Made by a program: the position numbers and the translations under genes. Below the pieces are notes generated by a model. It ran no database searches and was not told where the DNA came from. It worked only from the letters and a program-made list of their open reading frames with translations. From the NCBI RefSeq assembly GCF_000325665.1, contig NC_019908.1, forward strand, positions 1,984,001-2,048,000: a stretch of 64,000 nt of DNA, read 5' to 3'. Shown piece by piece: positions 37,414-42,865 of this stretch (its first letter is position 1; the number at the start of each line of letters is the position of its first letter). The DNA comes from Brachyspira pilosicoli P43/6/78 (lineage in GTDB: Bacteria > Spirochaetota > Brachyspiria > Brachyspirales > Brachyspiraceae).

Positions 37414-37442
37414 TTGACAAAGTTAATATTTTGTAGTAGAAT
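37414..37442 (+). promoter_or_regulatory. Promoter of the nhaC leader
   Basis: TTGACA (37414-37419), 17-bp spacer, TAGAAT (37437-37442). Transcription would start near 37449, about 180 nt before nhaC. Confidence 0.82.
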
Positions 37443-37472
37443 AAATTACTATAAAAAGAAAGTAGGAAAATA

Positions 37473-37523
37473 ATGAATAGATTTAAGAAACATAATAAAC
37501 CTCTTTTCGTTTGGGAGTGTTAA
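37473..37523 (+). CDS. Candidate 16-codon leader peptide upstream of nhaC
   Basis: ATG 37473 with TAGGA 5-9 nt upstream encodes MNRFKKHNKPLFVWEC and stops at TAA 37521-37523. It follows a consensus promoter and precedes a terminator, the layout of a translated attenuator leader. The last codons TGG-GAG contain GGGAG (37513-37517), which can pair with CTCCC in the terminator (37564-37568). The residue or ligand sensed is unknown; the lone Trp and the Trp-Glu-Cys end are suggestive only. Confidence 0.6.
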   Translation: MNRFKKHNKPLFVWEC

Positions 37524-37560
37524 ATTATTTATTCATTATTTATATAGTTTAGCAATTTAA

Positions 37561-37594
37561 AAGCTCCCTTAAAATACGGGGGGCTTTTTTATTT
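37561..37594 (+). terminator. Terminator in front of nhaC (putative attenuator)
   Basis: AAGCTCCC (37561-37568) pairs with GGGGGCTT (37579-37586, one G-U) across a 10-nt loop and is followed by TTTTATTT. It lies between the promoter and nhaC with no other gene in between, so read-through must be conditional. Confidence 0.8.
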
Positions 37595-37630
37595 GAATAT
37601 AATACATAAAAAAATAGGAGCTGATTAAAA

Positions 37631-39276: not shown

Positions 39277-39317
39277 TAAAAAGTCTCATAATTTCTTATA
39301 TTATGAGACTTTTTTTG
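39277..39317 (+). terminator. Strong terminator after nhaC
   Basis: AAAAGTCTCATAA and TTATGAGACTTTT form 13-bp arms with a short loop, followed by a T-run. Confidence 0.9.
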
Positions 39318-39452: not shown

Positions 39453-39728
39453 ATGAAAAAAATTTTGGTCGTTTGCCGAACAGGCATGGGAAGTAGTATG
39501 CTTCTCAAAATAAAAGTAGAACAGGCTGTATCAGCATTAAATGCAGATGCAGAGGTGTATCATGATGTAACATCAGCTATAGATGGATATAATGATGTTG
39601 ATATATTAGTTACGATGAAAGATTTAGCTGATGAACTTCAAGGCAGATTCCCTATAGTAATCGGTATAGAATCTATCACAAATAAAGAAGAAATAAAATC
39701 TAAAATATCAGAAGCTTTAAGCAAATAA
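39453..39728 (+). CDS. PTS EIIB, ascorbate/SgaB type (first)
   Basis: 91 residues. N-terminal P-loop-like phosphocysteine motif ILVVCRTGMGSSMLLK, Cys near residue 8, the phosphorylation site of lactate/ascorbate-type EIIB. It passes phosphate from EIIA to the sugar carried by the EIIC encoded 36 nt downstream. Substrate not known. Confidence 0.9.
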   Translation: MKKILVVCRTGMGSSMLLKIKVEQAVSALNADAEVYHDVTSAIDGYNDVDILVTMKDLADELQGRFPIVIGIESITNKEEIKSKISEALSK

Positions 39729-39764
39729 GCATCACAGTAATAACATTATAAGGAGAAAATTCAA

Positions 39765-41036
39765 ATGATTACAGGAATATTAAATTTTATAGTTTATGAT
39801 TTATTAGGTACTAGTTCTATATTAGTTGGTTTTATAGCTATGTTTGGTCTTATCTTACAAAAGAAGAAATGGGATAAGGTTGTAATCGGTACTATAAAAA
39901 CAATAGTTGGATTTATAATTTTTAGTGCTGGTTCTTCTTTGGCAACTAGTTCATTAAATTCTTTCCAAACTTTATTTACAAAAGCATTTAATTTGGAAGG
40001 AGTATTACCTTTAGCTGAAGCTGTTACAGCATTGGCTCAAAATAAATTTGGACCTATAGTTGCTTTAATAATGGTTACCGGTTTTATAGCTAATTTAATA
40101 ATAGCTAGATTAACTCCATTTAAATACATATTTTTAACAGGTCAGCACAATTTATATTTAGCAGCACTTTTAACTGTAATATTTAAAGCAAACGGTGTAT
40201 CTGATGGTCTTACTATAGGATTGGGAGCTATTATATTAGGAGCTTCTGCAGCATTATTCCCTGCTATAGCACAAAGAGGTATGAAGAAAATTACTGGTGA
40301 AAATGAGATAGCTATGGGACACTATGTTACATTAGCTTATGCTTTATCATCTTTCATAGGTTCTAAAGTTGGTAAACCAGAAGACAGTACTGAAAAATTA
40401 AAATTACCTTCTTGGCTTATGATATTTAAAGATTATGTTGTTTCAGTAGCTTTATCTGTTGCAGTGTTCTATTATATATCAGCATTTATGGCTGGTAAAG
40501 CAGAAGTTGAGGCTTTATCTGGAAATGTTAGCTGGATATTATTCCCATTTTTACAATCATTATCATTTGCAGCTTCATTATTTATAATCATCACTGGTGT
40601 AAGAATGGTATTAGGTGAAATAGTTTCTGCATTTGTTGGTATTTCTGAAAAACTTATTCCTAATGCAAAACCTGCTTTAGACTGTCCTGTAGTATTCCAG
40701 TATGCTCCTACTGCTACTGTTATAGGATTCTTATCTGCTTATATAGGCGGTTTATTATGTATACCTGTATTTATAGCTTTAAAAACACCTGTAATTATAC
40801 CTGTTGCTGTTCCTTATTTCTTCATAGGTGCTACTGCTGGTGTATTTGGTAATGCTACAGGCGGTTGGAAAGGTGCTATTGCTGGAGGATTTATCACTGG
40901 TATACTTATAGCTGTTGGACCTGCTTTAATATACCCTATAATGAGTTCTATAGGTTTAACAGGTACTTCTTTCCCAGAAACAGACTTTGTTAGTGTTGGT
41001 TTAATATTAAATGCTATATTAAGCATATTCAATTAA
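39765..41036 (+). CDS. PTS EIIC, UlaA/SgaT type (first)
   Basis: 423 residues, about 11 membrane helices. UlaA-type marks: FLTGQHNLYLAALLTVIF, SGVRMVLGE-like ITGVRMVLGEIVSAFVGISEK, PALDCPVVFQYAPTATVIG, and GATAGVFGNATGGWKGA. It forms the membrane channel for a sugar acid or related polyol brought in and phosphorylated with the EIIB upstream. A second, clearly related EIIC lies at 43686 in the same operon. Confidence 0.92.
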   Translation: MITGILNFIVYDLLGTSSILVGFIAMFGLILQKKKWDKVVIGTIKTIVGFIIFSAGSSLATSSLNSFQTLFTKAFNLEGVLPLAEAVTALAQNKFGPIVALIMVTGFIANLIIARLTPFKYIFLTGQHNLYLAALLTVIFKANGVSDGLTIGLGAIILGASAALFPAIAQRGMKKITGENEIAMGHYVTLAYALSSFIGSKVGKPEDSTEKLKLPSWLMIFKDYVVSVALSVAVFYYISAFMAGKAEVEALSGNVSWILFPFLQSLSFAASLFIIITGVRMVLGEIVSAFVGISEKLIPNAKPALDCPVVFQYAPTATVIGFLSAYIGGLLCIPVFIALKTPVIIPVAVPYFFIGATAGVFGNATGGWKGAIAGGFITGILIAVGPALIYPIMSSIGLTGTSFPETDFVSVGLILNAILSIFN

Positions 41037-41086
41037 TATAAAATAATGTTATAATATATAAAAATAATAAAATAGGAGAAAAATAG

Positions 41087-41896
41087 ATGAGTTCTATAGA
41101 AGAATTAGAAAAGAAAGCGAAGAAATGCAGACAAACACTTCTTCAAATGGTTTATGATTCAAAAGGTGTAGCACATTTAGGCGGATCTTTATCTGCTATG
41201 GATATGGCTGTTGCTGTGTATGATAAATATATTAATGATTTAAAAGATAGTAATAGATCTCGTTTTGTATTATCTAAAGGACATGTTGTTGTTATGCAAT
41301 ATGCTATATTTGCTAATATGGGTATTATACCTATGGAAGAGCTAAAAACATTAAAGCATGTTAATAGCCATCTTCAAGGACACCCAGATATTAACAAGAT
41401 ACCAGAAACAGAGATGAATACTGGTCTTTTAGGTCAGGGTTTAGCTGTTGCTATGGGTATGGCTTATGCTAGAAAATTAAATAATAACAGCAATAAAATA
41501 TTTGCTTTATGCGGTGATGCTGAGCTTCATGAAGGTCAAATTTGGGAAACTGTTCAGCAGGCTGCACATTTCAAATTGGATAATTTAGTAGCTATTATAG
41601 ATAATAACGGACTATCTTCACATGACCCTGTTAATGAAGTTATTAATTTAGGTTCTTTGGAAGATAAGTTTAATAGCTTTAATTGGAATGTAATAACAGT
41701 AAAAGACGGAAACAATATGAAAGATGTTGTTGAAGCATTAGACAAATTAGATAAATTAAATGGAAAACCTGTTGCTATTATAATGAAAACAGTAAAAGGT
41801 AAAGGTGTTTCTTTCTTAGAAAATAACCCTAATTGCCATTCTGTAACTATAAGTGATAAAGATTTTGAGCAAGTAAAAAAAGATTTAGATATGTAA
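41087..41896 (+). CDS. Transketolase, N-terminal (thiamine diphosphate) subunit
   Basis: 269 residues, the thiamine diphosphate-binding half of a split transketolase. Motifs: KGVAHLGGSLSAMDMAVAVYD, LSKGHVVVMQYAI, HLQGHPDINKIP, GLLGQGLAVAMGMAYA and the cofactor motif LCGDAELHEGQIWE...IIDNNG (GDAE ... NN). The C-terminal half follows 22 nt on. Together they transfer a two-carbon ketol unit between sugar phosphates. Placement inside a PTS operon suggests they act on the imported phosphosugar. Confidence 0.93.
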   Translation: MSSIEELEKKAKKCRQTLLQMVYDSKGVAHLGGSLSAMDMAVAVYDKYINDLKDSNRSRFVLSKGHVVVMQYAIFANMGIIPMEELKTLKHVNSHLQGHPDINKIPETEMNTGLLGQGLAVAMGMAYARKLNNNSNKIFALCGDAELHEGQIWETVQQAAHFKLDNLVAIIDNNGLSSHDPVNEVINLGSLEDKFNSFNWNVITVKDGNNMKDVVEALDKLDKLNGKPVAIIMKTVKGKGVSFLENNPNCHSVTISDKDFEQVKKDLDM

Positions 41897-41917
41897 TAAA
41901 AAAGGGGAATAATATTT

Positions 41918-42865
41918 ATGATAAACATAGAAAAAAATTCAGCTCCTAGAGCGATAATAGGAAAACATTTAACTAGTTTAATAGAAAAAAATAATAAGAT
42001 TATAGTTATAGACAATGATTTAGGTACTTCAACATCTTCTTATGATGTAACTAAAACTTTCCCAAAAAATTATTGGGAATTAGGTATTGGTGAGCAAAGT
42101 TCTTTGAGTGCTGCTACTGGTTTAGCATTAGAAGGAATGTATCCTGTATATGTTAATTTTGCTATATTTGCTACTGGTACTATATGGACACAAATTAGAC
42201 AGGCTGCTTATGCTAAAGCTAATCTTAAAATAATAGCTACTCACCCAGGTTTAGATGCTGGTCCAGACGGTGCAAGCCACCAAGCTACACAAGATATGGC
42301 TTTAATGCGTTGTGTTCCAAATATGAATGTACTTCTTCCTCTTGATGAAAATGATGTAAAATCTGCTATTACTTATGCTCTTAACAATAAAGGTCTTTAT
42401 TATGTAAGAGTATCAAGAGAGCCTGTACCTATAATTTATAATTCTCCTGAAGAGGCTAATTTTGATATTACAAATAAAGAAATTGCTAAAACTGGTGATG
42501 ATGTTGCTTTATTCTTTGACGGTTCTTCTTTTGAACAAGCTATTGCAGCTGCTAACTTATTAGAGAAAAATAATATTACTTATCGTTTAATACATGTTCG
42601 TTCTTTAAAGCCATTAGACAGCAAAAACATTATAGAGAATGCTAAACAAGTAAAATGTGTTGTAAGTTTAGAGAACCATAGTGTTATAGGCGGTTTGGGA
42701 AGTGCTATAGCTGAGGTGCTTGCTGAGCATAAAGATGTTGCTCCTTTAAAAATAGTTGGATGTCAGGATACTTTCACTGAATCTGGTAAATCTACAGAAT
42801 TAAAAGCTAAATACGGCGTATCTGGAGAAAATGTTTTAAGCAGAGTAAAAGAAGTAATAAAATAA
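41918..42865 (+). CDS. Transketolase, C-terminal subunit
   Basis: 315 residues: the pyrimidine-binding domain (ELGIGEQSSLSAATGLALEGMYPVY, with the Glu that activates the cofactor, and HPGLDAGPDGASHQATQDMALM) and the C-terminal transketolase domain (VKCVVSLENHSVIGGLGSAIAE). Partner of the protein at 41087. Split transketolases occur both in central metabolism and in dedicated sugar pathways. Confidence 0.93.
   Translation: MINIEKNSAPRAIIGKHLTSLIEKNNKIIVIDNDLGTSTSSYDVTKTFPKNYWELGIGEQSSLSAATGLALEGMYPVYVNFAIFATGTIWTQIRQAAYAKANLKIIATHPGLDAGPDGASHQATQDMALMRCVPNMNVLLPLDENDVKSAITYALNNKGLYYVRVSREPVPIIYNSPEEANFDITNKEIAKTGDDVALFFDGSSFEQAIAAANLLEKNNITYRLIHVRSLKPLDSKNIIENAKQVKCVVSLENHSVIGGLGSAIAEVLAEHKDVAPLKIVGCQDTFTESGKSTELKAKYGVSGENVLSRVKEVIK

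Follow-up and report, generated by a model that had tools for sequence, protein, structure and literature searches.

The question raised by this locus is what a short open reading frame (ORF) and an intrinsic terminator are doing between the promoter and the start codon of nhaC, a transporter gene of a gut spirochaete. The window, that is, the whole 64-kb stretch of DNA analysed, belongs to a 2.56 Mb single-contig Brachyspira genome (G000). The consensus promoter, the ribosome site, the 16-codon ORF, the complementarity between GGGAG and CUCCC, the terminator and then nhaC were all found where an earlier note on this DNA had placed them (Table 1). The same note held that nhaC has no other promoter, and no second plus-strand promoter matching at least 9 of 12 positions was found from the terminator to nhaC. 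A promoter scan of the G000 locus gave hits near the shuffle level (15 versus 12.8), single matches being weak when taken alone, and the element stands above chance because it is conserved across Brachyspira. The terminator was also considered as the end of an upstream gene, which was ruled out since the upstream neighbour is divergent; this neighbour has no match in Pfam or NCBIfam. The nhaC product matches PF03553 (E = 2.8e-45), and no solved structural relative was found for it by sequence. The nhaC unit looks monocistronic. It is followed by a unit (39453-42865) encoding ascorbate-type PTS components IIB and IIC and a transketolase in two pieces, with domain matches for IIB, IIC and the first transketolase piece. 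At Rfam gathering scores the window holds no known element, neither a lysine riboswitch nor a T-box, in agreement with what had been noted from the letters.

Table 1. Features of the nhaC locus in G000 (window positions; codons numbered from the invariant Trp of the leader peptide).
Feature	Position	Strand	Evidence
Upstream neighbour gene, 428 aa	36010-37296	divergent from nhaC	
Promoter TTGACA-17-TAGAAT	37414-37442 (TTGACA 37414-37419; TAGAAT 37437-37442)	+	11/12 match
Predicted 5'-end hairpin UUACU...AGUAG, near expected transcription start	37446-37465	+	sequence
Probable ribosome site AGGA of leader ORF	37464-37467	+	sequence
Leader peptide ORF MNRFKKHNKPLFVWEC, 16 codons	37473-37523 (ATG 37473; TAA 37521-37523)	+	sequence, conservation
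Lys codons -9 and -8 (AAG AAA), conserved putative control codons	37485-37490	+	codon changes in genus
Lys codon -5 (AAA)	37497-37499	+	Lys at -5 or -6 in 24/24 leaders
Region 1 (CUCUU), predicted protector-stem partner of GGGAG	37501-37505	+	folds
Region 2 (GGGAG within Trp-Glu codons), predicted antiterminator 5' arm	37513-37517	+	folds, shuffle test
AU-rich stretch from stop codon to terminator, with hairpin inside antiterminator	37524-37555	+	folds
Region 3 (CUCCC), predicted partner of region 2 or region 4	37564-37568	+	folds, shuffle test
Intrinsic terminator (regions 3:4)	37559-37588, with U-run to 37590	+	folds; U-run in 24/24
Ribosome site AGGAG of nhaC	37616-37620	+	sequence
nhaC, putatively controlled gene, NhaC-superfamily transporter, 540 aa, PF03553	37631-39253 (ATG 37631)	+	domain match
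Terminator-like hairpin 3' of nhaC	39280-39316	+	sequence

The transporter gene is present in 25 of 26 Brachyspira genomes, and the promoter, the in-frame ORF, the GGAG/CUCC pair and the U-run precede it in 24 of these, which speaks for the proposal of the earlier note that the locus holds an attenuator built on a leader peptide and a GGGAG antiterminator. In all 24 leader-bearing genomes a TTGACA promoter is located 27-44 nt 5' of the leader start, and CUCC follows GGAG at a distance of 39-59 nt. The remaining genome, G001 (L014), has lost the ORF and the terminator together, so that the promoter and the 5' hairpin nearly adjoin nhaC, and from its sequence it may be regarded as a natural constitutive variant of nhaC control. 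This is the opposite of a conserved terminator accompanied by an unconserved ORF, the outcome named beforehand as fatal to the proposal. A sequence model of the element matched once per genome, always at nhaC, and the search of the genomes with this model gave no convincing copies at other genes, the extras being weak or opposite-strand matches of the leader; likewise, nothing similar was found when the lysA gene of G000 was examined for a lysine leader. A hairpin (UUACU...AGUAA/G) at the expected 5' end of the RNA recurs in the genus (L002-L026), including G001 without the attenuator, and is perhaps an RNA stabiliser.

The start, frame and stop of the ORF are conserved in 24/24 leaders, with ATT in place of ATG in L024. 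The leaders are 15-20 codons long, the differences being in-frame indels, and the spectrum of peptides extends from MNRFKKHNKPLFVWEC via MNNSFLYKKLKETFCSWEC and MNNFLKKIKQSFYIWEY to MFITVKKHKKLHFCWS, the last from the deepest species. Survival of the start, frame and stop through these indels, together with codon-like changes, indicates that the ORF is, in evolutionary terms, translated. At the lysines in positions -9 and -8 (counted from the invariant Trp) five codon changes were mapped on the nhaC tree, all of them between AAA and AAG, and no amino-acid change, whereas positions -10, -7, -4 and -1 underwent 5, 6, 8 and 10 amino-acid changes, respectively. Judged from these five synonymous and zero non-synonymous changes, selection is for lysine codons and not for the bases. 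A further Lys occupies -5 or -6 in 24/24 leaders. In one leader (L012 of G010) a 12-nt in-frame deletion took four codons, including -9 and -8, but spared the Lys-Lys pair at -6 and -5; this leader is a natural experiment on how many of the control codons are needed.

On the RNA level, GGAG in region 2 is kept in 24/24 leaders and region 1 reads CUUC(U) in most other species and CUCUU in G000. In the printed folds, the 2:3 antiterminator, in which GGGAG/CUCCC encloses an AU hairpin, has -10 to -17 kcal/mol and the terminator -8.5 to -15.5 kcal/mol; the region 1:2 pairing is short (-3.3 to -6.9 kcal/mol). The AU-rich middle varies in sequence, and its hairpin recurs in most species. The antiterminator of the earlier note was thus correct in its GGGAG/CTCCC pairing and incomplete, having missed the region 1 arm (CUUC/CUCUU) and the inner AU-rich hairpin. 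Compared with shuffled ORFs, the duplex between the ORF and the terminator arm gave P values of 0.0025-0.044 in each of 13 representatives (about 0.01 in G000). Against a synonymous null the 2:3 pairing was unremarkable (about 0.3 per sequence), since only the choice of GAG is free; the weight of the 2:3 pairing comes from its retention in all species. The region 1:2 pairing, with synonymous P values of 0.002-0.5, is weaker than 2:3. Codon choice points to RNA-level constraint in regions 1 and 2, as the rarer synonyms are kept where a codon overlaps a pairing arm: TTC encodes 18/18 Phe at position -3 versus 16% TTC in the window genes (84% of Phe codons are TTT), and GAG encodes 23/23 Glu of the leaders versus 32% in the genome. 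The alignment that had been suggested as a check showed the conserved ORF; the covarying GGGAG/CTCCC expected with it is scarce, as the arms hardly vary, the exception being G019, where the pair changed on both sides to GGAG/CUCC. Covariation counting in MAFFT columns was dropped because the AU-rich middle was aligned out of register, and the per-sequence tests took its place. Against the attenuator reading, different species give different free-energy folds for the open RNA. The element thus appears, by comparison, to combine the parts of an attenuator, namely a translated ORF between promoter and gene, control codons upstream of the antiterminator arm, a terminator ahead of the gene, and the alternative 2:3 and 1:2 pairings.

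The reading that we favour, and consider probable, is that nhaC is controlled by a ribosome-mediated transcription attenuator that senses a shortage of charged lysyl-tRNA. Sequence comparison supplied the conserved ORF, the Lys-codon selection, the alternative pairings and the terminator; we infer the co-transcriptional order, that the ribosome stalls on Lys, which way the response goes, and that the substrate is lysine. RNA polymerase would transcribe the leader while a ribosome translates the lysine-rich peptide. With enough lysine, the ribosome would reach the stop codon and cover GGGAG, regions 3 and 4 would pair, and transcription would end before nhaC. If Lys-tRNA runs low, the ribosome would pause on the Lys codons between -9 and -5 with region 1 covered and GGGAG free, and the latter would pair with CUCCC before region 4 is made, so that no terminator forms and the transporter is produced; lysine shortage would therefore turn the transporter on. 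The leading edge of a ribosome lies about 12 nt past the first base of the A-site codon, and GGGAG starts 16 or 19 nt past the first base of the nearest Lys codon (-5 or -6), so that a stall there should cover region 1 and leave GGGAG open. Against this reading, a ribosome halted at -9 or -8 would not sterically block region 1, and the ribosome site of the leader is weak in many species, being weaker or further away in many relatives than in G000.

The link to lysine is also suggested by the transporter family. Among 54 distant relatives (about 40% identity, mostly Clostridia), 21, including one Spirochaetaceae, are immediately preceded on the same strand by the lysine riboswitch RF00168, and no other riboswitch recurs upstream of the 54. 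The riboswitch-controlled transporter lysW has been listed as COG1757/NhaC (PMC5584792), and an NhaC-like gene of C. difficile is under a lysine riboswitch, its function being unproven (PMC11477304). RF00168 had no match in the 26 Brachyspira genomes, the control genomes being positive. In the tree, the riboswitch carriers form one clade; the Brachyspira gene lies outside it, in a sister clade of spirochaetes set apart by a long branch. Spirochaete orthologs with 55% identity that were examined have neither riboswitch nor leader, and those of the Treponema/Sphaerochaeta type that were examined have no leader of the Brachyspira kind. The substrate could therefore differ from that of the riboswitch-linked relatives, given the separate clades and the orthologs with neither device. 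Nevertheless, a substrate common to the Brachyspira transporter and the riboswitch-controlled relatives is likely on this comparison, and by the riboswitches on those relatives the transporter is likely a lysine importer. Brachyspira keeps lysA, so lysine uptake would supplement synthesis. In a sister genus (g2; L033 and L034), ORFs of 44 and 40 codons lie upstream of the ortholog; they are Lys-rich and end in NKIKRNKQGK or NKIKPNKENTLK, and the upstream regions form extended hairpins with no clear U-run terminator. This K-rich small ORF is not claimed as the same attenuator, as it is a different ORF and lacks a clear U-run terminator.

The earlier note had proposed a nutrient-sensing leader with Trp, Cys or another stalling cue; the attenuator is retained here, and Trp or Cys as the cue is probably wrong. 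The codons TGG-GAG-TGT form the antiterminator arm, the deepest relative ends in W-S-stop with no Glu and no Cys, the last codons vary in G019, and a stall at Trp or Cys would favour termination, since the stalled ribosome would hide GGGAG; the conserved candidate sensor codons are the lysines 5-9 codons upstream of Trp. The same attenuator could instead respond to phenylalanine, to aromatic amino acids or to a mixture, an unlikely alternative that draws on the composition of the leaders, in which Phe is enriched 3.3-fold and Lys 2.3-fold (Lys being common, at 9%, in the AT-rich Brachyspira genomes) and many of which start with F, FF or FL runs. Nevertheless, there is no invariant Phe position, the one Phe that is largely retained (-3, TTC) falls on the region 1 pairing and is replaced by Leu or His where the pairing shifts, and the relatives are preceded by lysine riboswitches and not by aromatic T-boxes. 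A nascent-peptide arrest sensor like TnaC or SpeFL, in which the C-terminal WEC/WEY would hold the ribosome on the stop codon in the presence of a small molecule, is quite unlikely. Trp is indeed invariant (24/24), and WE, a final Cys or Tyr and the full WE[CY] ending each occur in 23/24 leaders, but the TGG-GAG bases are needed as antiterminator RNA, which explains W and E without a function of the peptide, the ending of the deepest relative departs from the motif, and a ribosome held at the stop codon would mask GGGAG and so cause repression. It is improbable that the leader responds to no particular amino acid and reports on the speed of translation or the supply of ribosomes in general, for instance by means of slow AAG codons or inefficient initiation: AAG does account for 22/46 codons at -9 and -8 versus 17% in the genome, and the ribosome site is weak in many species as mentioned, but Lys is retained through a free exchange of AAA and AAG, and the gene family is tied to lysine elsewhere. 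That the ORF is incidental, and that nhaC is governed simply by a terminator or by some unknown riboswitch-like RNA, is hardly credible even though shuffled sequences fold less well than the G000 leader (z = -4.3), given the conserved frame, start, stop and Lys codons with codon-like substitutions in an otherwise variable leader and the lack of a match to any Rfam family.

The textbook RNA sensor for lysine is a riboswitch. The lysine riboswitch (L-box, RF00168) of lysW/NhaC-type transporters resembles the nhaC leader in that it serves the same superfamily, has a terminator in the leader and is off when lysine is plentiful; the nhaC leader, however, has no aptamer, and its putative sensor is the translating ribosome with the Lys codons and not an RNA that binds free lysine. 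The lysine-sensing attenuator would thus do, in these gut spirochaetes, the job that the lysine riboswitch does for related transporters elsewhere. With the enterobacterial trp, his, thr, leu and phe leaders and the his leader of Firmicutes hisS/hisZ (PMC2965389), it has in common a translated leader with control codons for one amino acid, the mutually exclusive pairings 1:2, 2:3 and 3:4, and a terminator ahead of the gene; it is unlike them in its putative lysine control, its spirochaete host and its lone transporter gene, and no sequence similarity to any known leader was found. As of 2010, leader-peptide attenuators were described from Proteobacteria, Actinobacteria and some Firmicutes (PMC2965389). 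The proposed leader SEP5 of S. meliloti, with six Thr and three Lys codons (PMC10117765), likewise has a cluster that includes lysine codons, but this cluster is mixed, precedes an aspartate dehydrogenase gene and belongs to another phylum. Beyond the SEP5 suggestion, no lysine leader-peptide attenuator was found in the literature, with most subscription papers outside the search. The mechanism is classical; its proposed specificity for lysine and its presence in a spirochaete are, as far as was searched, apparently undescribed. That an undescribed lysine-specific leader attenuator, in a phylum without described ones, took over in the spirochaete lineage the role of the relatives' lysine riboswitch is held with somewhat less confidence than the attenuator itself, but still as the likelier course of events. 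If true, it would widen the phylogenetic and amino-acid range of attenuation, offer a clear-cut example of a switch from one RNA sensor to another in front of genes of the same kind, and give a likely substrate to a transporter annotated only as 'Na+/H+ antiporter'.

A further complementarity, perfect in G000 and its closest relatives, links the leader start region (37466-37487, AAUAAUGAAUA) with a segment that follows the stop codon (37523-37546, UAUUCAUUAUU). The G000 leader folds through this pairing, whereas a local hairpin takes its place in the main clade, and the pairing may shut off re-initiation on the finished leader RNA.
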